From Nitrospira sp. SB0662_bin_26 (GTDB lineage Bacteria > Nitrospirota > Nitrospiria > Nitrospirales > UBA8639): a DNA stretch of 41,427 nt. The position numbers and the translations under genes were made by a program. Below are positions 5,994-35,230 of the stretch, piece by piece. The stretch's first letter is position 1; every line of letters begins with the position of its first letter. The notes beneath the pieces are model-generated. The model made no database searches and was not told the origin of the DNA. It saw nothing but the letters and a program-made list of their open reading frames with translations. The stretch is from NCBI GenBank assembly GCA_009840285.1, contig VXOF01000105.1, positions 1 to 41,427 on the forward strand, written 5' to 3'.

Positions 5994-6013
5994 GATAACG
6001 ATTGTGTTCTATA

Positions 6014-6155
6014 GGAACCTCTGATTTATTGTGATAGCGGGATGCAGGGCAAGGCGTCCCGGAGCGAAACCCGAAGCTTATCAGAGAGATAGGTGAGGGT
6101 TGAGCGAGGATACAACGCAGCCATGCGTCCGATAGTGCACTAAATCAGAGGTTCC
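6014..6155 (+). mobile_element. MITE-like element copy 1
   Basis: ggaacctctgattta...taaatcagaggttcc terminal inverted repeats, TA on both flanks; ~95% similar by eye to four other copies. Confidence 0.85.
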
Positions 6156-6201
6156 TATTTATCCACGTCCGGTTTTGTGTTTAGGAAGGAGCGTCAGAAG
6201 T

Positions 6202-6873
6202 ATGGAAACGTATGCACGTGAAGAAGGCAAAGCTGAAATCGTCGATGACTCCAGCGCTCGCGAGTTGTTGCGACGCGCGTTTGAGAAAACGTCACGGTGG
6301 CCCGAAAACTTCGGAGGATTTGAAGCCGACCTCCGCATCAACGTGAATGGCGAGGAAACCACCGGGAAAGTCACGGTGAAGTCCTCAAAGGAAGTCGAAG
6401 TGTCTCTTCCGAACGAGGAACTTCAAAAATGGGCTCAAGGTCAAATTTCCATGATCGCCGCGCATCGGGGCCCTCGAAGCTTCGAGGAATCCGATGGAAA
6501 ATACAATCTATCCCTTGAGGGTGAGGAAAATCATCCCCAGGGACCACGGATCAATCTGGGCGATTCCATGGGCTCCACCTATCGCATCAAGGACGATCGT
6601 ATCACCCAAATCAACCGGAAGATGCCGCACGTGGCGTTTACGATCAACGTCGAAGACAGTGCGTTGACGCAGGATGAAAAATACCTGACGACACGGTATA
6701 CCGTGTATTACTACTCGCCCAAGGATGGTTCACTGGCCAACGTGGAGAGTTTTTCGGATTCTCACGCCAGGGTGGGAAACGCTGATCTGCCTGCGACCCG
6801 GCGCATAATTTCCTATGAAAAAGGCGCCACGGTGACGCGGACCATCACGTTTGAAAACCACAAGCCGCTGTAA
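6202..6873 (+). CDS. DUF3386-like protein
   Basis: Sequence resembles the DUF3386 family (RELLRRAFEKTSRWPENFGGFEADLRI); AGGAAGGA upstream of ATG at 6202. Confidence 0.65.
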   Translation: METYAREEGKAEIVDDSSARELLRRAFEKTSRWPENFGGFEADLRINVNGEETTGKVTVKSSKEVEVSLPNEELQKWAQGQISMIAAHRGPRSFEESDGKYNLSLEGEENHPQGPRINLGDSMGSTYRIKDDRITQINRKMPHVAFTINVEDSALTQDEKYLTTRYTVYYYSPKDGSLANVESFSDSHARVGNADLPATRRIISYEKGATVTRTITFENHKPL

Positions 6874-6940
6874 GCGTGACAGTTGTCATAACAAGGCTGT
6901 GACAATCGTCATTGAAGACGATCCGGCGAAGCTGATTTCT

Positions 6941-7016
6941 TTCCCTTCCCCTCCTTTGCCTGCCCTGAGCGTAGCGAAGGGTCAGGAGGGACGAAGGGGA
7001 GGTAGAGAGGATTTCC
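6941..7016. repeat. Interspersed intergenic repeat family 2, short copy A
   Basis: cccctcctttgcctgccctgagcgtagcgaagggtcaggagggacgaaggggaggtagagag; shares core with 21029-21183 and 36820-36975. Confidence 0.65.
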
Positions 7017-7033
7017 CGAACCTTCAGCACACA

Positions 7034-7771
7034 TTACGATAACCCCTGCCCTCGCGTACTCCCGCCGAAACCGCCGAAGTTCCCTTTGAAGCCACCCTGG
7101 CCGGTGCTCCAATATCCGCCTCGTCGCCAGCGTTGAAACGGATGCCGCCGTTCCGGGCGGGTAAACCGCCAAAGGGCAAACAGCATGGCTAGCGCCACGG
7201 CCACGTTCATCCAAAACCCAGCACTCGAAGCCCTTTTTGGTTCTGAGGCCGCTTGGACTGCGCTGCCCGAGGCCGCAGCCAATCCGACGGTCGCACGATA
7301 CAAGGATTCTCCGTACCGGGCATTTTGAAACATGGGGATGAGATACTGTCCGGATAATTCATCCAGTTTCGTTTTTCCGACTGCCGAGAGCAAACTACGT
7401 CCGAGGACCACGACGGCTTGTCGTTCCTTCAACGAAGCGAGCAACAACATGCCCCGCTCCTGTTGCGCCGCGCCAATATGCCATTCCTTATACAATCCCT
7501 CGGCATACTCCCGCGCATGCGAGTAAGGGCCGGCTGTCGCAATCGTCACGACAATCATTTCGACTCCGGTCCGGTCTTCCAGTTCTTTGCAAACTGCACG
7601 GATTCGGCTTTGCCAGTCGGAGCCAATCAACTCCGCATAATCGCTGACGTAACCGAGCGGCCTCGGGAAAGCAGATTTCTTTTCCACTCCAGCTGCGCCG
7701 GCCAACCCGGGAGCCCCCCAGACTAATGGCACAAAGAGAAAAACCATGGCTGCCGATCGCCACGTATTCAT
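7034..7771 (-). CDS. TPM-domain protein (YgcG family), membrane anchored with Gly-rich tail
   Basis: YVSDYAELIGSDWQSRIRAVCKELEDRTGVEMIVVTIATAGPYS, signal peptide, C-terminal GGFKGNFGGFGG. Confidence 0.82.
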   Translation of the reverse strand: MNTWRSAAMVFLFVPLVWGAPGLAGAAGVEKKSAFPRPLGYVSDYAELIGSDWQSRIRAVCKELEDRTGVEMIVVTIATAGPYSHAREYAEGLYKEWHIGAAQQERGMLLLASLKERQAVVVLGRSLLSAVGKTKLDELSGQYLIPMFQNARYGESLYRATVGLAAASGSAVQAASEPKRASSAGFWMNVAVALAMLFALWRFTRPERRHPFQRWRRGGYWSTGQGGFKGNFGGFGGSTRGQGLS

Positions 7772-8535
7772 GATTGAAACTTCTCCTCGTGATTTATCGC
7801 ATCTACCCGGTCCACCAATTGCCCCAAGCCTGTTAGGTACCGTTCCAACAGCTTGGGCAGTTCATGTTTCCCCGGTGTACTGAGGCCACGTTTCAGGCGC
7901 CAGACTTCGAGGAACACCGACGGGTCCACGTCCAGCGTTACTTTTAGTTCATCCAGCACGTCCGGAGATTTCAAGTTCGCCGGATGGTCCAGCAGGCGGT
8001 GCAGGCCGCGGAGACACGGGAGCAGCGAGGTTAACGAGAGGGGTAACAGGGTTTGAATGGCTTCGATCTTGCCCCATCCTTCGACGTAATTTTGGCGGAC
8101 ACGTAGGAGGTTGGCATGGACTTCCTGCCGGCATTGAAGAAACAGGTTGGCGGTATTGACGTGTAGCTCCGGGAACGGATCACGCCCTTCCAGGAGGACA
8201 TGATGTTCCTTGATGCCCAGAAATTCCAATGGAAACACGTCCGATGATTGTTGAAGGTCCTTGTGCGTGAGAAACAACGGGGCGACGATCTTCTCCCTGG
8301 CCCATTGTTTATGAATACCGCTCCACTGTTGAAGCACGGGTTGCGTGATATGTTCGAGGACGATCAGGACGTTGATGTTGGAATATCCCGGCAGAAACTC
8401 ACCACGCGCAGCACTGCCATAAACGAGGATCGATTCGAACGTCAGGCCCTTTTGTTTTTTGATGGAACGGAGAAAACCGCGTAGCGGGGCGTGCGTCTCT
8501 TCCTGCAACTGTGACCAGGGTGGATTGGCGGACAT
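7768..8535 (-). CDS. Nucleotidyltransferase-domain protein
   Basis: ILVYGSAARGEFLPGYSNINVLIVLE. Confidence 0.7.
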   Translation of the reverse strand: MSANPPWSQLQEETHAPLRGFLRSIKKQKGLTFESILVYGSAARGEFLPGYSNINVLIVLEHITQPVLQQWSGIHKQWAREKIVAPLFLTHKDLQQSSDVFPLEFLGIKEHHVLLEGRDPFPELHVNTANLFLQCRQEVHANLLRVRQNYVEGWGKIEAIQTLLPLSLTSLLPCLRGLHRLLDHPANLKSPDVLDELKVTLDVDPSVFLEVWRLKRGLSTPGKHELPKLLERYLTGLGQLVDRVDAINHEEKFQS

Positions 8536-8574
8536 TCTTACGATCTCATCCGTAATGCGTCGTGAAAATTGGCC

Positions 8575-9846
8575 TCATGAAAGCGCATGAGGTGGTCGTT
8601 GATCCGCGCGAGGATCAGACACGAATCCCAAAGCCAGAAAGCGATCCAATAACCCGAAAGGTGGAGTCTCACGAAGACCGGCGGTCGCAGTCAAGACTCG
8701 ATATTTCAGCCTGCGGTTTTGATCGATGGTGGAAAAGACCCGGTTACGCAGCCACGCGAGTGCCGGGTTCCCCGTATTCCAAAAAAAGGCCTCTTCATCG
8801 GCAAGTCGCTGCAGCATTTCGACTTTGGGACGACGCTGTTTTTCGAATGTTTTCAAACGCGATGCTTGAAAATTGTCTTCTGCGAGACACGCAGGAATCA
8901 AATCCGCCAACACCGTGGCATCGACCATGGCCTGCATGCGCCCCTGAGAAGCATGGGGATTCATCCCATGGGCCGCATCCCCGATCAGCACGGCCCCGTC
9001 GGCGACCCACGTTTGCGCGCAGGTACGGCCCGTTGGCATCACTGTGGTTTGCTCCCAGTCGATGAACCCGTGAAACGTGGCCAAGAGTTCAGGGTAAATC
9101 GACGACCAGCGTTTCTGAAGGGGTTCGACCCCGGCAGCGTATAAAGCATCCTGGGATTGGGCGTCGATCAGGTAGACGAGATAGAGTTTCTCCTTCGCAG
9201 CCGGGAATAAACCCAGAATTTCTTTTTTCCCGAGAAAGTACTGTGCTTCCTCCAATTTCTCCGGGCAGTCCAGGATGGCGACAAGGTAGCTTTCGGGATA
9301 GCGATACAGCTTGGTGGGAATGTCGAGTGCGCTACGAACTTTGGAGGCCGGCCCATCGGCCCCGACGATCAATTTGGCGGAAATGCGTACAGGTTTGCCT
9401 TGAACGTCCGCTTCCACCCCTATGATGATTTCGTCTTTTTTCAAAACGTTGGTAAACGACGCGTTGTACCACAAGCTTCCCGGATTCTGTTTCTCCAGGG
9501 CTTCGAGCACCGTCCGATGCGCGACATGCGGTAAGGTGACGAGGGCGCGATTATAGGGAGGAGGCAATTCGTCATAATCGATCGAACACAACCGGCTCCC
9601 CCCGATTTGCCGGAAATGAAAATGCCGGACGGGCTGCACCGCGTGTTGCGGCAATTGATCCAACAGGCCCAGTTCATCCAAAATTTTCTGCCCGTTCGGC
9701 TGGAGGATTTCTCCGCGTATCCCGCGTGGAGGCCCTGAAGCCTGTTCGAGAACGAGGGTCCGGATGCCTTTCCTGGCAAGCAGAAGACCCAGGATTGCTC
9801 CTCCGCCTCCGGCGCCGACGACAACGACATCAACGTGTATGTCCAT
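8575..9846 (-). CDS. FAD-dependent monooxygenase / UbiH-like oxidoreductase
   Basis: VVVVGAGGGGAILGLLLARKGIRTLVLEQ; GADGPASKVRSAL; VLIGDAAHGMNPHASQG. Confidence 0.88.
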   Translation of the reverse strand: MDIHVDVVVVGAGGGGAILGLLLARKGIRTLVLEQASGPPRGIRGEILQPNGQKILDELGLLDQLPQHAVQPVRHFHFRQIGGSRLCSIDYDELPPPYNRALVTLPHVAHRTVLEALEKQNPGSLWYNASFTNVLKKDEIIIGVEADVQGKPVRISAKLIVGADGPASKVRSALDIPTKLYRYPESYLVAILDCPEKLEEAQYFLGKKEILGLFPAAKEKLYLVYLIDAQSQDALYAAGVEPLQKRWSSIYPELLATFHGFIDWEQTTVMPTGRTCAQTWVADGAVLIGDAAHGMNPHASQGRMQAMVDATVLADLIPACLAEDNFQASRLKTFEKQRRPKVEMLQRLADEEAFFWNTGNPALAWLRNRVFSTIDQNRRLKYRVLTATAGLRETPPFGLLDRFLALGFVSDPRADQRPPHALS

Positions 9847-9877
9847 ATGAGGGAAAGGAGCGAATCGAAAAACTCGG

Positions 9878-10020
9878 GGAACCTCTGATTTATCGCACTA
9901 TCGGGCGCATGGCTGCGTTGTGTCCTCGCTCAATCCTCACCTATCTCGATGATAAGCTTCGGGTTTCGCTCCGGGACGCCTTGCCCTGCATCCCGCTATC
10001 ACAATAAATCAGATGTTCCT
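9878..10020 (-). mobile_element. MITE-like element copy 2
   Basis: Reverse-oriented copy of the ~144-bp repeat; one terminus mutated (agatgttcct); no TA flank. Confidence 0.82.
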
Positions 10021-10047
10021 CAGGATTGGATTTCCCGGGCAAACCGC

Positions 10048-10419
10048 CTATTCAAATATTTTTTGGAAATGCTCGTCGGCTTCTTCCCATGCGGTGGGAT
10101 TCGTGTTTTTCAGCCAATCTTTCAGGAAAGCCTTCTGCTCAGGCGAGAGCATTTGCTTGATCTGGTGGGAACGGCCTTGCAGGGGCTGTAAAAATCCGAC
10201 CTTTTTGACGGGGTCGAGCGTGGCAGTCCGTACGTAAACATTCGTATAAGCCCCGGGCTTTTCATCATCCCCCTCCCCTTGGAGCCAGACCGAAATGTAC
10301 TTGTCCATGACCAGTCCGGAACTGTCCATCGCCGGATCCGTTTCATGAAACACGTCATTTTCCGTTTCAGATAACGGGACGGCTTCATGAGCCCGAAAAA
10401 GAAAATTGTGATTCCACAT
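10048..10419 (-). CDS. Hypothetical protein (123 aa)
   Basis: Non-overlapped ORF; no family recognised. Confidence 0.55.
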   Translation of the reverse strand: MWNHNFLFRAHEAVPLSETENDVFHETDPAMDSSGLVMDKYISVWLQGEGDDEKPGAYTNVYVRTATLDPVKKVGFLQPLQGRSHQIKQMLSPEQKAFLKDWLKNTNPTAWEEADEHFQKIFE

Positions 10420-10646
10420 GAGGAAAAAGGGGGTTAAAAGAAACTTGTTTCATAGTGGCAAGGAGCCGGCATGAAAGTCAAATGTGGCCACTTACGCAAG
10501 ATAACCCTTGTATTTTCTTGCCGGCTTGTCATAGTGTTACGGACAAACCTCTCGTGGAATACTGGGTGCCGGGATTGTTATGCAGAAGGCGCTCATGAGA
10601 TGTGCAGCACCGCTTATCGAATCACACAAAAAAGGAGTATCGCCTC

Positions 10647-11270
10647 ATGAAACCATGGTGTCTCACTGGATTTCTTTTGGCCGTTCTGTTCATTTTCGGA
10701 TGTCAAGGCCCTGGCCAAATTACCAAATTACGTATCCAGCATGTCGAATCCGCAGTTGAGTCCAAAGCGTCGCCTCTCACGGTCGCAGTCTCTCCTTTCG
10801 ATGATAAACGGCAACCATCGGAGCACTTGGGCATGCGAGTCCGTGGCGGAGGAAACCAGACCTATTTTGACGTGATGGACGGCACGCTGAGTCAACGTAT
10901 CACAAATTCTTTTGTCGATTTCCTAAACCAGGCGGGATTTTCTGCCGCACCGGCTAATGGCGCGGGTTCCGCTAATGTAAGGATTGAGCCGATTATCCAA
11001 AAATTCAAGGTCGAGGCGACCGATAAAGCGTTGGCTACCTACCTCGAAGTCGACACGATCATGGCCTTTACCGTCCGTAATGCAGCCGACGAAAGTACCG
11101 TTCGAATTGCAATCAGGGTCGGTGGAACGGATCATGAAGTATTTTTCTCCGAAGAGGATCTGGAAAAACTTATCGGGGAAGTACTCACTGAAGGTTTCGA
11201 AGAATTTCTGGAAAAGGTCGAAGTCCAAGGAGAGGCCCTCAAGTTTCGTCTTCCTGAGGGAACCTCCTGA
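10647..11270 (+). CDS. Putative lipoprotein
   Basis: MKPWCLTGFLLAVLFIFGCQG lipobox-like N-terminus; AAAGGAG upstream; ORF-track start at 10602 probably too early. Confidence 0.75.
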   Translation: MKPWCLTGFLLAVLFIFGCQGPGQITKLRIQHVESAVESKASPLTVAVSPFDDKRQPSEHLGMRVRGGGNQTYFDVMDGTLSQRITNSFVDFLNQAGFSAAPANGAGSANVRIEPIIQKFKVEATDKALATYLEVDTIMAFTVRNAADESTVRIAIRVGGTDHEVFFSEEDLEKLIGEVLTEGFEEFLEKVEVQGEALKFRLPEGTS

Positions 11271-11297
11271 GGCTGGATTTAACAACCCCCCCGGCTA

Positions 11298-11441
11298 GAG
11301 AACCTCTGATTTATTGCCCTATCGGGCGCATGGCTGCGTTGTGTCCTCGCTCAACCCTCACCTATCTCTCTGATAAGCCTCGGGTTTCGCTCCGGGACGC
11401 CTTGCCCTACATCCCGCTATCACAATAAATCAGAGGTTTCC
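11298..11441 (-). mobile_element. MITE-like element copy 3
   Basis: 144 bp between TA (11296-11297) and TA (11442-11443); matches the other copies. Confidence 0.85.
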
Positions 11442-11824
11442 TAGGGTTCTTCACTCGCACCAAACCACCGATAGCGATATCTCGCTACAAGTTCATAGCC
11501 GGCAGTCATGGCCTGACGGCACAAGCGAAACCTCCAGAAAAACAGGAGGAGTTTCCCGCTCGTCAGGCCGTGCAGGAACGGAAAAAACGCTTCCAACCCA
11601 CCGACAACGGCCCCCTTTTCATCGATCCAATAGGCCATGGGAGGCCGGGAGTCAGACTGATGGCGGCTTCCCAGATATTCGGCAGCATCTTGACTGTCAT
11701 AGGGGAGATACTGAACGCGTGTGGAACGTTGCTCCAATTTCCGCTTCACTGCGACGCAAAGACGACAATGAGAATCATAAATCAGGCAACCGGACCGCGG
11801 TTGACCGGGAACTTCATCGTTCAT
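11441..11824 (-). CDS. DUF393 / DCC-family thiol-disulfide oxidoreductase
   Basis: CLIYDSHCRLCVAVKRKLEQ (CxxC-type N-terminal motif), SRPPMAYWIDEKGAVVGGLEAF. Confidence 0.78.
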   Translation of the reverse strand: MNDEVPGQPRSGCLIYDSHCRLCVAVKRKLEQRSTRVQYLPYDSQDAAEYLGSRHQSDSRPPMAYWIDEKGAVVGGLEAFFPFLHGLTSGKLLLFFWRFRLCRQAMTAGYELVARYRYRWFGASEEP

Positions 11825-11851
11825 ATTCCATCCTGGCCTCAGGCAGTTCGC

Positions 11852-12883
11852 CTAGCTCTTAAACGTGTCTGCAATCCGCTCCGGGGACACGATCCCTTGC
11901 TCCGTAATGATTCCTGTGACGTATTTGGCAGGTGTCACGTCAAAGGCCGGGTTAAAGACGGCTACATCTTTTGGGGCAATACTTGCCTCTCCATTGATGG
12001 TGGTGACTTCATGGCCGGGACGTTCTTCAATAGGAATGGCCGAACCGGAGGGCATTGACACGTCGATAGTCGAAGAAGGGGCCGCCACGTAAAAGGGAAC
12101 GTCGTGGGCCTTGGCAAGAACCGCAACGCCATAGGTCCCGATTTTATTCGCGACGTCTCCGTTGGCGGCGATCCGATCGGCACCGACCACACACAAGTTG
12201 ATTTTGCCTTGCCGCATGACAACGGCTGCCATGCTATCCGTGATCAGCGTCACGGGAATGCCGTCTTCCATCAATTCCCACGCCGTCAATCTGGCGCCCT
12301 GAAGAACGGGCCGAGTCTCATTCGCAAAGACGTGCACCTGTTTCCCCTGCTCCGACGCCGCCCTGATCACTCCCAAGGCCGTGCCATATCCGGCGGTTGC
12401 CAACGCCCCGGCATTACAGTGCGTCAAAACGGTATGCCCATCCTTGATGAGGCCGGCTCCATGCTGGCCCATGGCCTTGCACATGGCAACGTCTTCTTGT
12501 TGGATCGCCAAAGCTTCCTGCACAAGCCGGGACTGGATCTCGGCGACCGTACAAGCACGATTTTCCCGTACAACGGCCTTCATCCGCGTCAGAGCCCAAA
12601 AAAGATTTACGGCCGTGGGACGAGTTGCGGCTAATTGATCACAGATGCCCAAAACGTGGCGCTCAAACGTCGAGACATCGGCCGCGGACACGGATTGTGC
12701 GCCCAGTGCAACCCCCATGGCGGCGGTCACTCCAATAGCCGGTGCGCCTCGCACCTTCAACTCTTGAATGGCGGATGCCACGGCAGCCACGTCTTTGCAC
12801 TCGAGCAGTTCGGTATGGCCGGGCAACCGGCTCTGATCAAGGAGCCGGACGACTCCATCTTTCCATTCGACGGTAGGAATCAT
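11852..12883 (-). CDS. mtnA: S-methyl-5-thioribose-1-phosphate isomerase
   Basis: [65 protein letters not shown]. Confidence 0.94.
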
Positions 12884-12919
12884 GGCTAACGCCCGTTGAC
12901 AATTGCTTGGGGCACGTTT

Positions 12920-14371
12920 TTATCCTTTGATGTTCCCGATCGGCAATAATTCAGCCACTTTTCTTGTAATCCCCGCAGCATCCACCGACTCCACCACGTC
13001 GGAAATATTCTTGTACGCGATTCCTGCTTCTTCGGCCAATCCCGACATCGAGACGGCTTTCACCAAAATGCCCTGTTCGGCCATGTTCTGCTGAAGGGTC
13101 GCCCCGCGAACCATTCGTTTTGCCTGAGCCCGCGACATCGTCCGGCCCGCGCCGTGCATCGTCGATCCGAAGGACTCCGAATTGGCCTGCGCCGTTCCCA
13201 CCAGCAAGTATGATCCGGTCTCCATGGAGCCGCCGCAGATTACCGGCTGGCCGACCGTTCTGAATGGATCCGGAACATCGGGGCTCCCCGGGCCAAACGC
13301 CCGAGTGGCGCCCTTACGATGGACCAGGAGATTCTGCCTTTCGTACCGTTCGACTTTGGCGATATTGTGGGCCACGTCATAGACCTGTCGCATGCCGAGC
13401 CTTTCAGGAGACTCCCGGAACACTCGACAAAAGGCTTCGCGAATTTGGTGGGCGATGACCTGCCGATTGGCGAAGGCCGTGTTTGCCGCACAGTTCATGG
13501 CCGAAAAATACTGCTCCCCTTCCGGTGATTGATATGGCGCACAAGCCAATTGTTGATCCTTAACGAAGATGCCATAGCGCTTCATGGCCTTTTCAAAGAT
13601 ACGGACGTAGTCGGTGCCGACCTGATGTCCGAGACCTCGAGATCCACAGTGCACCATGATCACGATCTGATCATGCCCATGAATGCCGAATCGTTCAGCC
13701 ACGGACCGGTCGAAAATACGGTCATTTCTGACCACCTGGATTTCAAGATAGTGATTTCCCGAGCCCAAAGTTCCCAATTGACCCATGCCCCGTTGGCAAG
13801 CGTGTTCGGAAACGTGTTCCGGGTCGGCTCCGGACAAACAGCCCTGCTCTTCCGTATGGATAAGATCACTATCCCATCCATAGCCCTGTTTCACGCCCCA
13901 TCTTGCTCCCTGATGCATCACGTCCTGCAAGGTGCGTCGGGACAGCTTCACAAAACCTTTTGCCCCGACCCCTGCAGGCACCGTACGAAACAATTCCGTC
14001 ATCAAGGCATCCAATCGCGGCTTCACGTCGGCCAGTGTTAAATCCGTGCGGAGCAGCCGCATTCCACAATTGATATCATAGCCCACACCTCCCGGAGAAA
14101 TGATGCCGTTTCGAACGTCGAAGGCTGCGACACCTCCGATGGGAAATCCGTAGCCCCAATGTCCATCAGGCATGCACAAGGCATACTTTTGAATACCGGG
14201 CAAACATGCCACATTCGTGACTTGCTCAAATACGCCGGCGTCCATTGACTCAAGAATTCTTTTCGTTCCATAAATTCTGGCAGGAACCAGCATGCCCGAC
14301 TTTTCCGTCTTGGGAATTTCCCAGACAGCATCGGCGAGCCGATTGACTTTCATTGCAGTGGCGAGATTCAT
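12920..14371 (-). CDS. rtcB: RtcB RNA-splicing ligase
   Basis: CMPDGHWGYGFPIGGVAAFD; GGVGYDINCGMRLLRTDL; GSGNHYLEIQ; HGAGRTMSRAQAKR. Confidence 0.95.
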   Translation of the reverse strand: MNLATAMKVNRLADAVWEIPKTEKSGMLVPARIYGTKRILESMDAGVFEQVTNVACLPGIQKYALCMPDGHWGYGFPIGGVAAFDVRNGIISPGGVGYDINCGMRLLRTDLTLADVKPRLDALMTELFRTVPAGVGAKGFVKLSRRTLQDVMHQGARWGVKQGYGWDSDLIHTEEQGCLSGADPEHVSEHACQRGMGQLGTLGSGNHYLEIQVVRNDRIFDRSVAERFGIHGHDQIVIMVHCGSRGLGHQVGTDYVRIFEKAMKRYGIFVKDQQLACAPYQSPEGEQYFSAMNCAANTAFANRQVIAHQIREAFCRVFRESPERLGMRQVYDVAHNIAKVERYERQNLLVHRKGATRAFGPGSPDVPDPFRTVGQPVICGGSMETGSYLLVGTAQANSESFGSTMHGAGRTMSRAQAKRMVRGATLQQNMAEQGILVKAVSMSGLAEEAGIAYKNISDVVESVDAAGITRKVAELLPIGNIKG

Positions 14372-14452
14372 ACACGATAAAGTTGAGTTTAAAGTTTATA
14401 TTTTGTTTATAATTATTTGATATACATGGATTATCAAGCTCATTTTATTGCA

Positions 14453-14905
14453 TTATACGTCCAGGACTATGCGAGCATACCAACCACTTTCGTCAGGTCT
14501 GATTTCAAATAAATGCTTGGTCACCGCTTTCACGTCGGTTCGTAAATCCTGACGAGTCGCATCAACGCCGTCACCGGTCAGAGTGGCATCGAGATGCCAC
14601 AGATTGTTCTCCGAATCATGTCTTACCATAGCACGGACGCTATGAAAGATAACTCCTTCGGCATCTTTGATGAACACGATGCCGTTCAACCATTCGAAGA
14701 ATAAATCCTCTATTTCACTTTCTGACAGAAGACAGTCCTTCGTCCAATTGGTTTCTACGGTCAGCGGGTCAGCCATGGCTTCAATCACGGCCAATGCCGC
14801 CGACTCGAACAACTCTGACACTGAATCGCCAGTGGCTTCAAACGCAAGATCCCCCAAAACAATTTCATCGAGAAACCGGTATGCTTTCCCCATATCATCT
14901 GCCAA
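14453..14905 (-). CDS. Archease (RtcB cofactor)
   Basis: YRFLDEIVLGDLAFEATGDSVSELFESAALAVIEAM and DLRTDVKAVTKHLFEI; adjacent to rtcB. Confidence 0.85.
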   Translation of the reverse strand: MADDMGKAYRFLDEIVLGDLAFEATGDSVSELFESAALAVIEAMADPLTVETNWTKDCLLSESEIEDLFFEWLNGIVFIKDAEGVIFHSVRAMVRHDSENNLWHLDATLTGDGVDATRQDLRTDVKAVTKHLFEIRPDESGWYARIVLDV

Positions 14906-15017
14906 TAAGGATCAGAGAAAATATGTTTTCGCTTTGCAACTTTTCGGAAGAACGAAGGCCGCAAACGATGAAAGATTCGGTCCCTCGAAAACCGGGATGT
15001 ACCGTCATGGACATCGT

Positions 15018-19923: not shown

Positions 19924-20067
19924 AGGAACCTCTGATTTATTGTGATAGCGGGATGCAGGGCAAGGCGTCCCGGAGCGAAACCTGAGGCTTATCAGAGAGA
20001 TAGGTGAAGGTTGAGCGAGGACACAACGCAGCCATGCGCCCGATAGTGCATTAAAGCAGAGGTTCCC
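19924..20067 (+). mobile_element. MITE-like element copy 4
   Basis: 144 bp flanked by TA (19922-19923 and 20068-20069); inverted termini. Confidence 0.85.
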
Positions 20068-25509: not shown

Positions 25510-25593
25510 GATCGCCTTTAGGACGAACAACGAGAAACGTTTGAGGTGTAAGCCTTCTCACAAGAGTCCCGCGTTAAGGTATACTGCACTGCC

Positions 25594-27882
25594 ATGAAAA
25601 AGTCATTCGACCAGACGGAACTGGAAAAACTCTCTCCACAAATCGACCGTGCAGTTGTCAAAGACTTTCTGGATCGTATGGATCCGGATTATTTCCTGGA
25701 ATTTTCAACCCGGACCGTGGCGGAACACGTGACCCTGGCCAACACCCTGACTCTGGAAGAGCCCTGCATGCTCCGTGTTCAACCGGCAAACGATGCGAAT
25801 CGGTACCGGCTCACGATCGTCGCCTACGACTATTTTGCGGAATTTGCCACCATTTGCGGCCTGTTGTCCGCCTATGGCTTCGACATACGCGAAGCCCTTG
25901 TTTTCACGTACCATGACGACCCGGTTTCTGCGTCGAAAACTTTGCGTCACATGCGAGCGCCCAAATGGCCGATCCGGCGCCCCCGCCAACAACCGGGCCT
26001 CTTCAAAAGAAAAGTCGTGGACGTCTTTCAGGTTCAGCTTCTCCCGGGGACGACATTCAATGCGGCAACTGAGCAGGAATTGAGCCAAGACCTGTCCCAC
26101 ATGATTTGTTTGCTCGAATCCCGGAAGCTCCAGGAGGTCCGCAATTATGTAAATCGAAAATTAGCGGAAACGCTTGGCCAAAGAAAAACAGCGGCTTCCG
26201 CCCTCGTGCATCCGGTGGAAATATTCTTCAATAATGCGCGTTCCACGCGAGATACCGTCGTCGATATCAGAGGCACGGATTCTCCGGCTTTCTTATACGC
26301 CTTTACGAATGCGTTGGCCATGAGAGGACTGTATTTTTCAAAAGCCGTGATTGATGGAGACGGCATCAAAGTCCGTAACCGATTTTTTGTCAGGGATCGA
26401 CACGGCAAGAAGATTGTCTCGACACAAGAACAACAGGAACTGACCGTCGCCGCCGCCCTCATCAAGGAATTTACCCATTCCCTCACGTGGGCCCCGGATC
26501 CCGGCAAGGCGTTGAATCATTTCAGTCATTTCCTGGATCAGTTGCTGGAACATCGTCTCAACAAAAAACAGATCGGCTGGCTTACCAGAAAAGATTCGTT
26601 GGCCAACCTCGCCCGGTTATTCGGTACAAGCGATTTCTTATGGGAAGACTTCCTTCGCCGGCAACACGTCAACCTTCTGCCCATTGTCGAAACGTTCCAT
26701 CAGCCTCAGGCCCGCTTATCAAAAACCGCTCTCGCCAAGACGTTGAAGGCCGCGCTTGGAAAGAATCGAAATCCGGGAAACAGAAAAACGATCTTGAATC
26801 GGTTTAAAGATCAAGAATTGTTTCGTATCGACATGCATCATATTCTTAACGAAACGTCCCTCCCCTCGTTCTCCGAATCACTCACGACCCTGGCTGAAGT
26901 GATCTTAGCACAAGCCCTCGTCGAGGCCCAGGCAGTGGTCAACCGAACACTTCCACCGCCGGCGACGCTGAACAAAAGTCCTCTGCCGTTCAGTATTTGT
27001 GGATTAGGCAAGTTGGGCGGGCGTGAGTTAGGCTACGCCTCCGATATCGAGTTGATCTTTGTCTATGGGACGAATACCTCGGATCGTCCCAGCCCCGGCC
27101 TTGGTGAATACTACGAACGACTGGTTCAGGAATTTCTTCATTGGATCGAGGCGAAACAGGAAGGAATTTTTCAGCTCGACATCCGGTTGCGACCTCATGG
27201 AGAAAAAGGTCTGTTGGCGAATTCCTTTGACGACGTCAAACGCTATTATCGAACGGGAGGCGCCGCTGCGCCGTTTGAGCGACAGGCCTTGATCAAGTTG
27301 CGGCACGTCGCGGGGCACGCCGCGCTGGGCCGTCGCATTGAACAGTACCGGGATGAGTTTGTCTACAGTCGAACCTCCTGGCCGTTGGACACCGCCCTGC
27401 ATTTGCGCCGCAGGCAGATCCGGGAATTGATCCCCAAGGGCGCCATCCACGTGAAATACAGTCCTGGTGGACTCATCGACGTTGAATATGCCGCTCAGTA
27501 CCTTCAAATGCAGCATGGCTGCCGGGATGCCTCGCTGCATACTCCCAATACCCTGGACGCACTTGAGGCCCTTCAAGCGACAAAAATTCTCTCACGTCAC
27601 GACGCAACGATCCTGATGGAAGACTATCTGTTCCTGAGAAAGGTGATTGATGGCTTGCGCATCGTTCGCGGAAATGCCAAGGATCTGGTGCTGCCGGAAT
27701 CCGGTTCCGACGACATGATCTATCTGGCAAGAAGATTGGGGTATCTCACCGACGTCTGGAAAGAAGGGGCGCAAACGTTTGAAAACGAGTTACAACAACG
27801 CATGAACCGGACACACGCCCTATTCGTCAAACTGTTTCGTCAAACGCCTTCCGGCAAAAGAAAACGGCGTCTTTCCGATTGA
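25594..27882 (+). CDS. GlnE-family adenylyltransferase with apparent ACT-like N-terminal region, single nucleotidyltransferase domain
   Basis: RLTIVAYDYFAEFATICGLLSAYGFDIREALVFTYHDD (ACT-like); ICGLGKLGGRELGYASDIELIFVYG; LDIRLRPHGEKGLLA; YSPGGLIDVEYAAQYLQ. Confidence 0.82.
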   Translation: MKKSFDQTELEKLSPQIDRAVVKDFLDRMDPDYFLEFSTRTVAEHVTLANTLTLEEPCMLRVQPANDANRYRLTIVAYDYFAEFATICGLLSAYGFDIREALVFTYHDDPVSASKTLRHMRAPKWPIRRPRQQPGLFKRKVVDVFQVQLLPGTTFNAATEQELSQDLSHMICLLESRKLQEVRNYVNRKLAETLGQRKTAASALVHPVEIFFNNARSTRDTVVDIRGTDSPAFLYAFTNALAMRGLYFSKAVIDGDGIKVRNRFFVRDRHGKKIVSTQEQQELTVAAALIKEFTHSLTWAPDPGKALNHFSHFLDQLLEHRLNKKQIGWLTRKDSLANLARLFGTSDFLWEDFLRRQHVNLLPIVETFHQPQARLSKTALAKTLKAALGKNRNPGNRKTILNRFKDQELFRIDMHHILNETSLPSFSESLTTLAEVILAQALVEAQAVVNRTLPPPATLNKSPLPFSICGLGKLGGRELGYASDIELIFVYGTNTSDRPSPGLGEYYERLVQEFLHWIEAKQEGIFQLDIRLRPHGEKGLLANSFDDVKRYYRTGGAAAPFERQALIKLRHVAGHAALGRRIEQYRDEFVYSRTSWPLDTALHLRRRQIRELIPKGAIHVKYSPGGLIDVEYAAQYLQMQHGCRDASLHTPNTLDALEALQATKILSRHDATILMEDYLFLRKVIDGLRIVRGNAKDLVLPESGSDDMIYLARRLGYLTDVWKEGAQTFENELQQRMNRTHALFVKLFRQTPSGKRKRRLSD

Positions 27883-27898
27883 ACCGGAAAGACGCCGT
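27855..27898 (-). terminator. Intrinsic terminator downstream of glnA, overlapping the 3' end of the opposing GlnE-like CDS
   Basis: 14-bp perfect arms ACGGCGTCTTTCCG (27864-27877) / CGGAAAGACGCCGT (27885-27898), 7-nt loop, then TTTTCTTTT on the minus strand. Confidence 0.85.
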
Positions 27899-27930
27899 GA
27901 TGTCCAAATGGGGCTCGAAGCCCCATCGCG

Positions 27931-29340
27931 CTAAATATCGTAGTACAAGAAGAATTCATGGGGATGAGGACGAATGCGAACCTCATCGGCTTCGTTTTCC
28001 CGTTTATAGCTGATCCAAGACTCCACCAGATCTTCACTGAAGACCCCGCCCTTTAGCAGGAACTGATGGTCGTTTTCCAGGTTGTCGAGTGATTCATCGA
28101 GGCTCGCAGGCACGGTTGGAATATTCGACGCTTCCTCCGGAGCCAAATCGTAGAGATTTTTGTCCATGGCTTCGCCCGGGTCGATCTTGTTTTGAATGCC
28201 GTCGAGTCCCGCCATCAACATCGCGCTGAAGGCCAGATAAAAGTTAGCCGAGGGATCAGGGAAACGCACTTCGATCCGTTTGGCTTTCGGGTTGGTCGAA
28301 TACATCGGGATTCGAATCCCGGCCGACCGGTTCCGGCTTGAATAGGCCAACAACACGGGAGCCTCGAATCCGGGCGTCAACCGTTTATAGGAATTGGTCG
28401 TCGGATTCGTAAACGCCGCCAGGGCCGCAGCGTGCTTCAGCACGCCGCCGATGTAATGCAGGCACGCTTTGGACACACCGGCGTATTCTTTGCCGGCGAA
28501 CGTCGGTTTTCCGTCCTTCCAAATGCTTTGATGCGTGTGCATGCCCGTCCCGTTATCCTGGAACAACGGTTTCGGCATGAATGTCGCGGTTTTGCCGTGC
28601 CGTCTGGCTACGTTCTTGACGATGTATTTGTACATCATCATTTTGTCCGCCATATTCAGTAAGCTGTCGAAACGAAGATCGATTTCGGCTTGTCCTCCCG
28701 TAGCCACTTCGTGGTGGTGTTTTTCAACATGAATCCCGGCCCTTTCCATTTCCCGGACCATTTCGGTACGAATGTCCTGTTGCGTATCCGTCGGGGGAAC
28801 AGGGAAATAGCCTTCCTTATGCCTTGGCCGTGACCCCAGGTTGTGACCGTCGTCGCCTGAATTCCATATACCCTCTTCGGAGTCGATAAAATAATAGCCA
28901 GAGTTGCTGGTTTGGTCATAACTCGCGTGATCAAACACGAAAAACTCGGCTTCAGGCCCCCAATAGGAGACGTCGCCGATTCTGGTGCTCTTCAGGTATT
29001 GCTCCGCCCGTTGAGCCACGCCTCGCGGGTCCCGCTCGTAGACGGCGCGCGTGATCGGATCTTGCACGTTACACACCATACTGAGAGTGGGCAGCTCGGT
29101 AAACGGATCCATCCGGGCGGAGTTCGGATCGGGGAATACCAGCATGTCGCTGTTCTGAATCGCTTTCCACCCGCGGATGGATGATCCGTCAAAGCCCGCT
29201 CCATCCTTAAACAAATCAAGGTTCAGTTCGGAGGTCGGGATGGAAAAATGCTGCCACGTCCCGACCAGGTCGACAAACTTGAGATCGACCATTTCCACTT
29301 TGTTCTTTTTGGCAAAATCCAATACTTCACGCGGAGTCAT
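27931..29340 (-). CDS. glnA: Glutamine synthetase type I
   Basis: 469 aa; [23 protein letters not shown]; adenylylation-site context [20 protein letters not shown]. Confidence 0.97.
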
Positions 29341-29387
29341 TCCGTACCTCCTTCTTCACACAATAGGTTTACAACACGAACGCCATC

Positions 29388-30686
29388 TCAGGTATAAGCG
29401 CGCTCACTATGCTGGCTCAAATCGAGCCCGGTTTCTTCATCTTCCGAAGACACGCGCAGACCCACCAGCAGATCCACGACTTTCAAAATAACAAAGGTTC
29501 CGACCACCACAAACACCAGCGTGGAAACGGCAAGCACAAACTGAGTCACGAATTGCCCCGGGTTCCCGTAAAATAAACCCTGGGCCCCTATGGATGCGAA
29601 CAACCCGGTTGCGAGGATCCCGGTAAAGCCGCCCACTCCGTGAATGGCGACGACGTCGAGCGAATCATCGTACCCCAGCCTGATTTTCAAGACAACTGCG
29701 GCATAGCAGAGGGCACCAGCCACGAGTCCGATCACTAATGCCGGCAGGGGCGTCACGAACCCGGCACCTGGAGTAATGGTGGCCAAACCCGCGATGATCC
29801 CGCTTGCCACCCCCAGCATGGTGGGTTTGCCGGTGCGTAGCCATTCCGCTCCCATCCAACTAATCCCACCGGCACAAGCCGCAATGTGCGTGGCGACAAA
29901 CGCCGAGGCCGCGCCTCCGTTAGCACCCAACGCGCTCCCGGCGTTGAACCCGAACCACCCAAACCACAACAACCCCGTCCCTAGGACCGTCATGGGAAGG
30001 TTGTGCGGAAGCATGGTCTCAACCCCGTAGCCTTTCCGTTGTCCCAACACCAGGGCACAGACGAGAGCCGCGAATCCCGAACTGATGTGCACCACGGCTC
30101 CCCCGGCAAAATCCAATGCGCCCATCTCCGCCAGCCAACCGCCTCCCCAGACCCAATGGGCAAGCGGCGAATAGATCAGGACTGACCAGAGTACGGCAAA
30201 CAGCAGCAACGCCGAGAATTTCATTCGCTCGGCAAAACTGCCGGTGATCAGCGCCACGGTGATGGCGGCGAACATGAGTTGAAACACCATGAAGGCCAAA
30301 TGCGGGATTCCCGTGCCGGGAAAGGCGTCCTGTCCCACGCCCATCGAGAAAAGAAATTCTAGGCTGCCGATGATTCCGCCCACGTCGGTGCCGAAGGCCA
30401 ATGAATATCCGAGCAGCACCCACACAATGCTGATCATGCAGAGGATGATGGCAGTATGCATCAGCGTCCCGAGTACATTTTTGCTCCGGACGAGCCCGCC
30501 GTAAAAAAGCGCCAACCCGGGCAGGGTCATACAGAGTACGAATGCGGACGACACCAGAACCCACGCCGTATCACCCGTGTCAATGGCTCCTGGGGTCCCG
30601 TCCTGGGCCCATCCGGTTACCGGCCCGCACCATAAACTCAAAATCACAACCACTAGCCACATGAATGAGAAGGTCGAGTGCTTCAC
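29388..30686 (-). CDS. amtB: Ammonium transporter (Amt)
   Basis: PGLALFYGGLVRSKNVL; WFGWFGFNAGSALGANG; IHGVGGFTGILATGLFA; GTG start. Confidence 0.95.
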   Translation of the reverse strand: MKHSTFSFMWLVVVILSLWCGPVTGWAQDGTPGAIDTGDTAWVLVSSAFVLCMTLPGLALFYGGLVRSKNVLGTLMHTAIILCMISIVWVLLGYSLAFGTDVGGIIGSLEFLFSMGVGQDAFPGTGIPHLAFMVFQLMFAAITVALITGSFAERMKFSALLLFAVLWSVLIYSPLAHWVWGGGWLAEMGALDFAGGAVVHISSGFAALVCALVLGQRKGYGVETMLPHNLPMTVLGTGLLWFGWFGFNAGSALGANGGAASAFVATHIAACAGGISWMGAEWLRTGKPTMLGVASGIIAGLATITPGAGFVTPLPALVIGLVAGALCYAAVVLKIRLGYDDSLDVVAIHGVGGFTGILATGLFASIGAQGLFYGNPGQFVTQFVLAVSTLVFVVVGTFVILKVVDLLVGLRVSSEDEETGLDLSQHSERAYT

Positions 30687-30842
30687 GGTTCCACCTCGGG
30701 TTAAGGGTTATCTGAACCGGCGCAGCCGGATACGCCAGAAACCGTCCGTTGCCGGAAAGTTGAAGAATTACACCTCAAGTCCACCAAGACCCGTTCCAAT
30801 GCCGCCTGTTTTCGTTTGTACAAGTGTCTTCAAGGGAGCCGG

Positions 30843-31241
<399 letters not shown>

Positions 31242-31282
31242 TCATGCCTGACGTGATCCAATATCATGAATCGATCTGACAC

Positions 31283-32587
31283 CTAAGTATATGCGCGTTC
31301 GCTATGTTCACTCAGGTCAAGCCCAACGATCTCCTCTTCCTTCTCCACGCGAAGGCCTATCACCATATCCAACACTTTCAAAATAATAAAGGTTCCGACA
31401 AACGCAAACACCCAAGTGGCTCCAACGCCCACGGCCTGAATGAACACCTGACCCGGATTTCCGAAAAACAAGCCTGTTCCACCGCCCACACTGGCAAAAA
31501 GTCCCGTGGCTATGGCCCCCCAAGTCCCTCCGATGCCGTGAATGCCCAGCACGTCAAGCGCATCATCATAGCCGAATTTGGACTTCCATACCACAGCTAA
31601 ATAGCACAGAACCCCGGCGCCGAAACCGATCACAATCGAGGAAATCGGGCCGACGAAACCCGCCGCCGGGGTAATCGCCACCAACCCGGCAATGGCGCCG
31701 CTGGCCCCGCCCAAGGCGGTCGGTTTGCCGGTATACATCCATTCAATCACGAGCCATCCCAGAACACCGGCAGAGGTGGCTACCTGAGTGGCGACAAAAG
31801 CCCCCGCGGCGATCCCATCAGCCGCCAGGGCGCTCCCCGCGTTGAAGCCGAACCATCCCACCCACAACAAGGCCGCCCCAACCACGGTAAAGGGCAGGTT
31901 ATGGGGAGCCATCTTTTCGGTTCCATAGCCGTGGCGTTGTCCCAGGACCAACGCCGCAGCCAAGGCGGCCACACCCGAACTGATGTGCACGACGGTGCCG
32001 CCGGCAAAATCCAGGGCTCCCAATTCGCCCAACCATCCGCCGCCCCAGACCCAATGAGCCAGCGGGGCATAGATCAAGGTGACCCACAGGACCGCAAACA
32101 GCACGTACCCCATGAACTTCATGCGTTCTGCGATGGCTCCGCTGATCAGCGCCACCGTAATCGCCGCGAACATGAGTTGAAACACCATGAAGGCAAGATG
32201 CGGGATGGCCGTGCCGGAAAAGGCTTCCGGCCCGACGCCACTCGACCACAGAAATTCGAAATTGCCTACGATGCCAGCCACGTCCGTGCCGAAGGCAATG
32301 GTATAGCCCCACAGCACCCAGACCACGCTGACCACGCACACGGAGATGAAGCTGTACATCATGGTGCTCAGCACGTTCTTGTCGCGCACCATCCCTCCGT
32401 AAAAAAGCGCCAGGCCCGGAATAATCATGGCGAGCACCAATGCGGAAGACGTCAGAAGCCATCCCGTATCCCCAGCACTGATCGCCGCGCCTCCTTCTTC
32501 CGCCAGGGCCGATCCCGTAAAAACTGAAAGTAGTAATACTGAAAATAATATACTTATATATTTTAATGAAAGTTTCCTGTTTTCCAT
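31283..32587 (-). CDS. amtB: Ammonium transporter (Amt), second copy
   Basis: PGLALFYGGMVRDKNVLSTMM; WVGWFGFNAGSALAADG; LGIHGIGGTWGAIATGLFA. Confidence 0.95.
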   Translation of the reverse strand: MENRKLSLKYISILFSVLLLSVFTGSALAEEGGAAISAGDTGWLLTSSALVLAMIIPGLALFYGGMVRDKNVLSTMMYSFISVCVVSVVWVLWGYTIAFGTDVAGIVGNFEFLWSSGVGPEAFSGTAIPHLAFMVFQLMFAAITVALISGAIAERMKFMGYVLFAVLWVTLIYAPLAHWVWGGGWLGELGALDFAGGTVVHISSGVAALAAALVLGQRHGYGTEKMAPHNLPFTVVGAALLWVGWFGFNAGSALAADGIAAGAFVATQVATSAGVLGWLVIEWMYTGKPTALGGASGAIAGLVAITPAAGFVGPISSIVIGFGAGVLCYLAVVWKSKFGYDDALDVLGIHGIGGTWGAIATGLFASVGGGTGLFFGNPGQVFIQAVGVGATWVFAFVGTFIILKVLDMVIGLRVEKEEEIVGLDLSEHSERAYT

Positions 32588-32621
32588 TTTCTCCCTCCTG
32601 TTATGTGGTTACAGGACTTCC

Positions 32622-33794
32622 CTAAAAGAGGAAGATCATTTCACCGGCCAACGTTGATTGGCTGTCTGTCGGACCGTCACTACCATCAAAGGTATTTCTG
32701 TCGGATTTATCGTAACGGAATTCCGCCCGGGTAATCAGATTGGGAACCGGCTTGTACTGCAGGGTCCATGTGGTTTCCCACAACGTTTGATCAGGCACGA
32801 CTCCTGCAGCACAAACATGAGCATTGCCTATACTTTCATCCCCAAAGCAAGAGAAGTAACCGGCCGCATCCTCAAAGACTTCCGCCCGGGCGTGAAGTCC
32901 CCACTGGTCGTTGAACTCATAGATGGCGTAGCCTGCCACGCCATTCCATCGGGCGTTGGCAGCTCCAGGGACTGCCTGATTCCCGTAATATCCTTCCAAC
33001 ACGAGTTCCAGTTGATCGGTCGCCTGCACATCGATGATGCCTCCAACCTGCATGCGGTCCGCACTTTCTTCTCCAAAAGAGTTATCCTCCGGCCCCCAGA
33101 ACCCGAATATCGACACCCCCAGGTTGTCCGCTGGCGCGAGAGACAGCAGCGCTTCGATCGATTTGCCGTTGTTCTCATCCCTTTGCAGGCCCTTAAATGA
33201 ATTGATGGCGCTCATGGCAAACGAAACGTTATCCGAAAGATCAAACGAAGCGCGAAACCCCGTCACCGTGAACGGTTCGCCGATGCCGAAGAGGAACGAA
33301 CGCGAGAAGTTGGGGTTGAGAGGGCTTTCGATCACTTCATACCCGATCAGCGTGTTCATGCGGCCGGCCTGGAAGGTGAGATTATCCGCCGGCATGTATT
33401 GGACGTAGGCTTCCTGAAAGTCGAAATCGTCGTTACCCGTCCCACCGGTAAATTTGGCATCTTCCCCGAAGTTCAGCTTCAGGCGGAATCCCGCCCGGTC
33501 GGCCAGGGCTCCTCCCGGACTCGCGGCTTTTTCCAGGACGAGTTGCGCCATGTTGGGTCGGAAGGAATTCGCGTCGCCGTCGAAACTCCGGTTGTTGTTC
33601 ACGCCGGTGGAAGGATTGTTGAAATTCTGCGTGTACGATGTTTCCACGTAGCCGTACAGCGACAGGTTCAGTTTGTTGGCCAACGTGTCATTTTGAGCCA
33701 GCGCCACGGAACTCAATAGTGGCAAAGGCAGCCACCCCACGACCGCAAGGCTGAAAACAAAAAAGAATATTCGAGTCGTCATTCGTTTGACCAT
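32622..33794 (-). CDS. Outer-membrane porin, putative beta-barrel porin-2-like
   Basis: Signal peptide; LNLSLYGYVETSYTQNFNNPSTGVNNNRSFDGDANSFRPNMAQLVLEK; C-terminal Phe (EMIFLF). Confidence 0.82.
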   Translation of the reverse strand: MVKRMTTRIFFFVFSLAVVGWLPLPLLSSVALAQNDTLANKLNLSLYGYVETSYTQNFNNPSTGVNNNRSFDGDANSFRPNMAQLVLEKAASPGGALADRAGFRLKLNFGEDAKFTGGTGNDDFDFQEAYVQYMPADNLTFQAGRMNTLIGYEVIESPLNPNFSRSFLFGIGEPFTVTGFRASFDLSDNVSFAMSAINSFKGLQRDENNGKSIEALLSLAPADNLGVSIFGFWGPEDNSFGEESADRMQVGGIIDVQATDQLELVLEGYYGNQAVPGAANARWNGVAGYAIYEFNDQWGLHARAEVFEDAAGYFSCFGDESIGNAHVCAAGVVPDQTLWETTWTLQYKPVPNLITRAEFRYDKSDRNTFDGSDGPTDSQSTLAGEMIFLF

Positions 33795-33909
33795 GTCAGG
33801 TTCTCCTTCGTCGAAATTTGTTGCAGAAAGTCAATTCGGCACACTCCTTTGTGTGCGTCCTATTGTGAATGAAAGGGCCTAGATTTAATTTTCAATGCCC
33901 TTCCTGACC

Positions 33910-33946
33910 AAAAAAAAAGCCCCCAACCCCTTTTACGTGGTTGAGG
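33910..33946 (-). terminator. Intrinsic-terminator-like hairpin in the leader of the porin-amt-PII-amt-glnA cluster
   Basis: Minus-strand CCTCAACC-loop-GGTTGGGG, then GC and nine T residues. Confidence 0.8.
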
Positions 33947-34009
33947 ACTTCGTCGTCCTTTGAATACAAATAATAAAGGCCGAGACACCGATGTCCCGAC
34001 AATGAGGCA

Positions 34010-34038
34010 TTTTTACATCAGTTCCAGGTAACAGTCAA
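34010..34038 (-). promoter_or_regulatory. Sigma-70-like promoter for the leader/porin cluster
   Basis: Minus strand TTGACT (34033-34038), 17-bp spacer, TAAAAA (34010-34015). Confidence 0.5.
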
Positions 34039-34095
34039 GACAAAATTGTGGGGAATTACATACGGAACCTAAGCTGTGTTATAGAGTTAACCGTT

Positions 34096-34932
34096 ATGCC
34101 TGAAGACCCCTCCTCACCTTTGGATTCCTTGGGAAATGCGCCCGTGCTTAGGGAGCCGCCTCCGAATCCCGAGGGCGGCAAGACCCTCATTGTGGATCAG
34201 GCCGATCCTGCGTGTTACCCCCGCCCAAGTGCGGCCCTGAAGGATGCGGGACCGGATGACCAAATTTTTGTTCGCCCGGGGATCTATGAAGACCGTCTAT
34301 TCGGCACACAGCAACCCATTCACTTGATTGGAGCCGGACGGGACCACGTCCAGATCTTCAGCCGCCGAAGCGGGCCTTTGTATTTGCAACAGATTCCCAG
34401 CGGGCGCATTTCCGGCATGACGTTCCGTTACGTCGGCAGCGACCAGCACTCCGCGATCAATATCTTCGATTCCACCTGCACGATTACCCAATGCCGGGCC
34501 ACCGACGGTCTCCTCTCGGGAATCGTGATTTATGGCCCGAATTGCCGGCCTTCGCTTATCGAAAACGAGGTATGCCGAAATCGTGAATCAGGAATTTTCT
34601 GTTTCGCCGGGGCACAGCCCTATCTGGCCAAAAACGTCTGTTTTGACAATCACCATTTTGGCCTGGCGGTCAGGGATGATGGAACTCGACCCGATTTTCT
34701 CAAGAATACCTGCCATCATAATATGCTCAGCGGCATACTCCTGTTTCATGGAGCCCAGGCAATGCTCCTGGAAAATGAGTGTTACGACAACTGTCACTGG
34801 GGACTCGTCATGACGCCCGACTCCAAATCAACGCCGGAGCCGGACCAACTCCTGTCCTGCAACGCCCTTGCTCAGAACCCACGAGGAGCCTGTATTGTCA
34901 CGGAACAACCCCTCGGAGAGATTGGGCGATAG
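34096..34932 (+). CDS. Right-handed parallel beta-helix (NosD-like) repeat protein
   Basis: About 23-aa repeats: ENEVCRNRESGIFCFAGAQPYLA / KNVCFDNHHFGLAVRDDGTRPDFL / KNTCHHNMLSGILLFHGAQAMLL / ENECYDNCHWGLVM. Confidence 0.82.
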   Translation: MPEDPSSPLDSLGNAPVLREPPPNPEGGKTLIVDQADPACYPRPSAALKDAGPDDQIFVRPGIYEDRLFGTQQPIHLIGAGRDHVQIFSRRSGPLYLQQIPSGRISGMTFRYVGSDQHSAINIFDSTCTITQCRATDGLLSGIVIYGPNCRPSLIENEVCRNRESGIFCFAGAQPYLAKNVCFDNHHFGLAVRDDGTRPDFLKNTCHHNMLSGILLFHGAQAMLLENECYDNCHWGLVMTPDSKSTPEPDQLLSCNALAQNPRGACIVTEQPLGEIGR

Positions 34933-35075
34933 GGAACCTCTGATTTAGTGCACTATCGGGCGTATGGCTGCGTTGTGTCCTCGCTCAACCCTCACCTATC
35001 TCGATGATAAGCCTCGGGTTTCGCTCCGGGACGCCTTGCCCTGCATCCCGCTATCACAATAAATCAGAGGTTCCT
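34932..35075 (-). mobile_element. MITE-like element copy 5
   Basis: 144 bp between TA (34930-34931) and TA (35076-35077); matches the other copies. Confidence 0.87.
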
Positions 35076-35230
35076 TATCGCAAGACAAGATATAGCGAGA
35101 GAAACGTTCCGTACTGAAAACGGTTGAGGCAGGGAACGTCAGATTCAAAATGTGCGGGCAGCACTGACGACATGAGCGAAAAAGATCCGGTCAGGAGCGT
35201 TGAAACCCGTAGCGCATCTGGCTGCCTTTG

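Follow-up and report, generated by a model that had tools for sequence, protein, structure and literature searches.

A miniature transposon family of Nitrospira with a homologue of the ERIC core between IS5-like ends

Introduction

Enterobacterial repetitive intergenic consensus (ERIC) elements have been in genotyping use for three decades, and to our knowledge their origin, mobilizer, and function are still open. ERIC has been recorded from Enterobacteriaceae and Vibrionaceae (PMC10969869); MITEPlu5, its relative in Photorhabdus, is reported to have a TA duplication and IS630-like ends (PMC6267812), and ERIC in Yersinia transcripts alters mRNA stability (PMC2229807). Here, we analyze a 41,427-nt stretch of DNA from Nitrospira sp. 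SB0662_bin_26 (contig VXOF01000105.1; this whole stretch is referred to as the window), which holds five copies of a miniature inverted-repeat transposable element (MITE) whose interior is a homologue of the ERIC core. In the open-access literature, a scope that excludes subscription papers and ISfinder, we did not find ERIC in Nitrospirota or on IS5-type ends, and searching the literature for the sequence strings of the terminal inverted repeat (TIR) and core returned nothing relevant.

Results

The window contains five near-identical repeats, each 142 bp long once a 4-bp duplication is assigned. A sequence-only reading of this DNA, made before our analysis, had placed all five between genes, in both orientations, in a window free of transposases, and each of these statements holds. 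It had also given every copy perfect 16-bp termini, which is incorrect for copies 2, 3, and 4, where there are mismatches. Inverted homology in fact extends past the TIR across the entire element, and one copy elsewhere (contig C80) has a perfect 37-bp TIR. The window copies and one empty target site are as follows (G, C, and L numbers are our handles for genomes, contigs, and loci; TSD, target-site duplication).

6014 to 6155, + strand: MITE copy 1; flanks TATA/TATT; neighbors are two divergently oriented genes; empty orthologous site in G008 and others
9878 to 10019, - strand: MITE copy 2; flanks TCGG/TCAG; tandem genes, structured strand codirectional; empty site CTCAG in G001, G004, and G011
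11299 to 11440, - strand: MITE copy 3; TSD CTAG/CTAG; empty site GTCTAGGG in G001, G011, and G013
11852 to 11860, no strand: empty target site (CTTAAACG); copy present here in G008 and G013 with TSD TTAA
19925 to 20066, + strand: MITE copy 4; TSD CTAA/CTAA; tandem genes, codirectional
34933 to 35074, - strand: MITE copy 5; flanks ATAG/TTAT; empty site TTAG in G001, G004, and G012

The whole element is an imperfect palindrome, with folding z scores of -6.6 to -8.5 for the structured strand compared to -3.9 to -6.6 for the other strand. Its interior scored 217 against an Escherichia coli ERIC (L282), versus 98 ± 13 for dinucleotide shuffles (z = 9.2), and the opposite strand gave a z score of 0.5. 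When all five copies were compared with four ERICs from Escherichia, Klebsiella, and Salmonella, scores ranged from 187 to 232; 1,139 other stretches taken from the window scored 164 at most. The similarity is in register over the full interior, with the unpaired motifs AAGGCG, GA, TGA, and ACGC at near-constant spacing. Collectively, these data show that the interior is a homologue of the ERIC core. This core had gone unseen in the sequence-only reading, the rest of whose MITE description is supported in part. The ERIC-like structured cores lie at the following positions.

6049 to 6118, + strand: core of copy 1
9915 to 9984, - strand: core of copy 2
11336 to 11405, - strand: core of copy 3
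19960 to 20029, + strand: core of copy 4
34970 to 35039, - strand: core of copy 5

MAFFT, run on all cores, misregistered a stem of unequal length; we therefore built the structural alignment manually and used covariance models to check it. In this alignment, which includes gammaproteobacterial elements and ERIC, 167 of 171 cells are paired, most pairs show compensatory changes, and the internal loops GA...GA and UGA...GA are near-invariant. Across 14 sequences, 15 of the 23 pairs vary at both partners; 0 of 500 shuffles attained the covariation seen, and slid controls were low. The difference AGAGA/ATCGA between copies, previously called diagnostic, lies within the 5-nt terminal loop of the hairpin. 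A first covariance model, built from gammaproteobacterial cores only, gave the five copies its best scores in the window (E = 1.5e-6 to 1.4e-4, against 0.69 for the next match there) and scored one ERIC at an E value of 0.011. A second model, which includes Nitrospira members and one ERIC, recovered other ERICs at E values of 1.2e-4, 4e-4, and 0.012; on 135 kb of loci bearing insertion sequences (IS), which serve as a partial control, it gave two matches with E values of <0.01, which fall in Nitrospirota loci and may both be genuine. Isolated ERIC-like cores were also matched by the second model in Citrobacter, at phnD-phnC (L280, 296 to 353; E = 9e-6), and on a Fukatsuia plasmid (L279; E = 0.0024).

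The likeness to ERIC could instead reflect convergence of palindromic repeats in an IS5-type MITE, not common descent, since both elements are long imperfect palindromes and the likeness to some gammaproteobacterial members is structural only. We regard this as unlikely because the similarity to ERIC is one-stranded, is in register, and takes in unpaired positions, and because the model built from gammaproteobacterial cores alone is specific.

Comparison of the element ends with transposons of the phylum shows that, by sequence, they are of the IS5-family type: across 20-odd IS5 elements of Nitrospirota, the MITE end shares mostly 14 to 16 of 17 bases. The DDE_Tnp_1 family is present in 5 of the 14 genomes of the genus, and two of these five, G008 and G013, encode a 313-amino-acid IS5_4 transposase (NF033581; E = 3e-93). 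The G008 IS5_4 element is 1165 bp long, with ends GGAACCTCTGATTAAGTC and TSD TTTA, and other IS5 elements of the order end in GGAAGGTCTGATTTATTC or GGAACGTCTGATTAATTC, with TSDs that are mostly CTAG, TTAG, and CTAA (mostly YTAR). Degenerate IS5 pieces are found in G008, in G013, and perhaps in G012. Another Nitrospirota genome, G019, holds an autonomous 1256-bp IS5_4 element (L336, 1303 to 2558; TSD TACA) whose ends, GGGCACCTCTAAAAAC, are the same as those of the ERIC-core MITEs in that genome. A non-IS5 transposase not seen here might have moved the MITE, given that its exact 17-bp end was found on no transposase element of the genus and that copies occur in most genomes of the genus, with IS5_4 in only two. 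We give this little probability, however, because IS5 elements of the genus and order match the MITE in end sequence, in duplication length, and in target and because G019 provides a parallel MITE/IS5 pair.

Of the 131 complete copies scored for target duplication, all distinct, 80 are flanked by a direct repeat of exactly 4 bp (2 bp in 4 copies, 3 bp in 1, and 5 bp in 1), compared to a mean of 5.9 and a maximum of 16 exact 4-bp repeats when flanks were permuted, and at least three of the four flank bases match in 115 of 131. Frequent duplications in the genus are TAAA/TTTA, TTAG/CTAA, TTAT/ATAA, and TCAA/TTGA, and most of those in gammaproteobacterial hosts fit YTAR; it is also common for the duplication to lack a central TA (TCAA, TTGA, TGTA, and TAAA). 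The sequence-only reading had noted TA on both sides of most copies and derived the family from IS630/Tc1-mariner elements. TA is indeed present at the flanks, but because the duplication is exact at 4 bp in 80 of 131 copies, it forms part of the 4-bp repeat and is not an IS630-type duplication. An IS630/Tc1-mariner origin draws on the TA inside many 4-bp duplications (CTAA, CTAG, and TTAG) and on the ends and duplication reported for MITEPlu5 (PMC6267812). It nevertheless retains very little probability: the 4-bp duplication and the empty sites described below refute it, and a repeat length that peaks sharply at 4, the many duplications without a central TA, and ends that match IS5 elements speak against it as well.

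We searched 13 genomes of the same genus for the joined 450-bp flanks of every copy. Each locus has an orthologous counterpart without the element in at least one relative, and at cleanly aligned junctions the missing part is exactly the element plus one 4-bp repeat. At copy 2, the window reads CTCGG, the element, and TCAGGA, compared to ACTCAGGA in relatives; at copies 3 and 5, the uninterrupted sequences of relatives are GTCTAGGG and GGGCGTTAGC (the latter empty site reads GTTAG); the junctions of copies 1 and 4 are more diverged. The reverse polymorphism occurs at about position 11855: the window reads CTTAAACG, and a copy flanked by a TTAA duplication is present in both G008 and G013. At the copy 2 site, a 10-bp remnant is present in G008 (L227, 7052) and at the matching site of G013 (L230; ACTCAG-GGAGCC-TCAG in G013), which would fit loss of the palindrome by an almost precise deletion between the CCTC repeats at the element ends. 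Thus, the five repeats are real miniature transposons that are mobile and generate a 4-bp duplication, and the earlier description of mobile, MITE-like, intergenic elements is borne out by the comparison with empty sites that it had proposed. A fixed, vertically inherited family of structural RNA genes, which strong folding of the structured strand (z = -6.6 to -8.5) and covariation might suggest, is refuted and retains practically no probability given the empty sites at all five loci, the reciprocal insertion polymorphism, the target duplications, and the lack of an Rfam match (window searched at the gathering threshold and copy 4 at E ≤ 5).

Copies adjoin stop codons more often than expected. 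Among 93 copies with both neighbors called, 31 lie within 1 base of a stop codon, where 9.4% would be expected from duplication-weighted permissible sites (p = 2e-10); for the genome of the window itself, this applies to 14 of 36 copies (p = 2e-6). Two window copies are among these cases: copy 3 adjoins the stop codon of a DCC1-like gene (11441 to 11824, - strand), and copy 5 adjoins that of a gene at 34048 to 34932 (+ strand). Since TAA or TAG is often part of the duplicated 4-mer, insertion leaves the stop codon in place. The structured strand is codirectional with transcription in 34 cases versus 13 overall (p = 0.003) and in 24 versus 4 in relatives.

The core and the ends also occur apart from one another. 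The second covariance model matched 96 of 296 Nitrospirota genomes, representing 28 of 135 genera. In five genomes (G016, G019, G026, G229, and G277), the core sits inside 140- to 142-bp elements with ends GGGCACCTCTAAAAACC, whose 4-bp duplication is exact in 17 of 23, and genomes of another family of the order carry the core with GCTGAAAAAG-type ends. In a Lysobacteraceae metagenome-assembled genome (MAG; L126, L155, and L175), 130-bp elements with a TIR identical to that of the window element and 4-bp duplications enclose a different interior palindrome (TCATTGCGAG type). Because the core is found on varied ends and the ends of the window element are found around another palindrome, core and ends are separable, which suggests that the ERIC core has spread between phyla on several transposon-end types.

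The genome from which the window comes (2.2 Mb, 113 contigs) holds at least 40 copies by BLAST, each with an E value of ≤2e-55 (40 of 94 candidates scored), and a 15-mer of the TIR occurs there 127 times with up to 2 mismatches, versus 0 times for the reversed control, both far more than chance would give. BLAST detected copies in 11 of the 14 genus genomes, this one included, and none in 46 genomes of other genera in the family and order. Named relatives with these ends come from Nitrospira sp. or Nitrospirales MAGs and also from one Granulosicoccaceae, one Lysobacteraceae, and one UBA6915 MAG; plasmid and phage collections gave no match to the Nitrospira element. The possibility that contigs ending in the TIR conceal a longer autonomous element was rejected, as the contig breaks fall inside the MITE itself. 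Two derivatives were seen in the same genome: an 81-bp form produced by internal deletion, with a perfect TAAT duplication (contig C6; L035, 205 to 285), and a lone 22-nt left end (GGAACCTCTGATTTATTGTGAT; contig C14, L079 from 871) closely upstream of an open reading frame (ORF) starting MPRVKGGPQ. This ORF resembles ribosomal protein L20, and the left end there appears to be a MITE remnant in its leader. Beside copy 1, at 5918 to 5939, lies a perfect 22-bp palindrome, GGGAACAACGATCGTTGTTCCC; very similar palindromes match many places in most genomes of the genus and look like a second small repeat family.

Discussion

We conclude that the repeats are, most probably, a 142-bp IS5-type MITE with an ERIC-homologous core, moved in trans by an IS5_4 (NF033581) transposase. 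The 17-bp ends (GGAACCTCTGATTTATT) would be recognized in trans by this IS5-family enzyme, which would insert the MITE into T/A-rich 4-bp targets and duplicate them; where a target holds TAA or TAG, as is often the case, the copy may land exactly on a stop codon, which the duplication then rebuilds. The core is a long hairpin with covarying stems and fixed GA...GA / GA...UGA internal loops and is found in Nitrospirota and Gammaproteobacteria on several unrelated sets of ends; at the ends of genes it may act as a transcribed RNA hairpin, in line with the proposal for ERIC in Yersinia. By analogy with Yersinia ERIC, the window element might likewise affect mRNA stability. The autonomous partner would have disappeared from the majority of genomes in the genus.

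Several observations weigh against this account. The end of the MITE is identical to that of the G008 IS over the first 13 bp and then diverges, and the exact TTTATT end was found on no IS5 element of the genus. An IS5 transposase was found neither in the genome of the window nor in the single-contig genome G010; therefore, either their copies are orphaned or their mobilizer was missed. In direct sequence comparison, the core shows no significant likeness to the members from Halomonas and Pseudomonas (z < 1), and the link to them is therefore structural. In addition, the alignments used for covariance had been fitted to the structure. Gene neighbors were taken from crude ORF calls, and the codirectional tendency is not seen in the genome of the window (10 versus 9); we claim no strand bias.

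The presence of a homologous core in another phylum, on ends of the IS5 type, suggests that the conserved part of ERIC is the GA-loop hairpin and that the exchangeable part is the ends. The IS5-like ends name a candidate transposase, and a 4-bp duplication that rebuilds a stop codon when it is hit would explain why a multicopy element is nearly harmless. We see about an even chance that the ERIC core is an ancient structured module in its own right (RNA or single-stranded DNA), captured by or exchanged among transposase systems and kept across phyla because its hairpin does something for the element or for the transcripts in which it lands. Such a module would ride on IS630-like ends in enterics, on two or more IS5-type ends in Nitrospirota, and on GCTGAAAAAG-type ends in Nitrospira and Pseudomonas.

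Among known systems, the IS5-family IS of Nitrospirales (NF033581; about 1165 to 1180 bp) resemble the MITE in TIR (mostly 14 to 16 of 17 bases) and 4-bp duplication, whereas the MITE has no transposase gene and, with ends compared by eye, no evident similarity to the IS interior. The GGGCACCTCTAAAAACC MITEs of related Nitrospirota genera share the ERIC-like core, the 140- to 142-bp length, the 4-bp duplication, and, in G019, an autonomous IS5-type partner, but their TIR is unlike that of the window element. RUP of Streptococcus pneumoniae is likewise a MITE assigned to an IS family through TIR similarity; unlike the window element, it is IS630-type with TA targets, and an ERIC-like core is not described for it (PMC2229807). 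Compared with IS5-derived MITEs as a class, the window element has the 4-bp duplication and shared TIR, and its own genome yielded no autonomous element; compared with ERIC, it has the core similarity and hairpin, and it lacks both ERIC termini with a TA duplication and an Enterobacteriaceae or Vibrionaceae host. It is thus an IS5-type MITE by its ends and a relative of ERIC by its core, and it falls outside ERIC proper, whose ends and TA duplication were looked for and are absent. A further close counterpart is ERIC / IRU / RU-1 (MITEEc1, MITEYpe1, and MITEPlu5) of Enterobacteriaceae and Vibrionaceae, with which the element shares a homologous core (z = 9.2), the same GA-loop hairpin, similar length, intergenic position, high copy number, and occurrence in both orientations. 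ERIC, however, is about 127 bp long, with TATAC-type ends, a TA duplication, and hosts in Gammaproteobacteria, whereas the window element is 142 bp long, with GGAACCTCTGATTTATT ends, a 4-bp duplication, and hosts in Nitrospirota.

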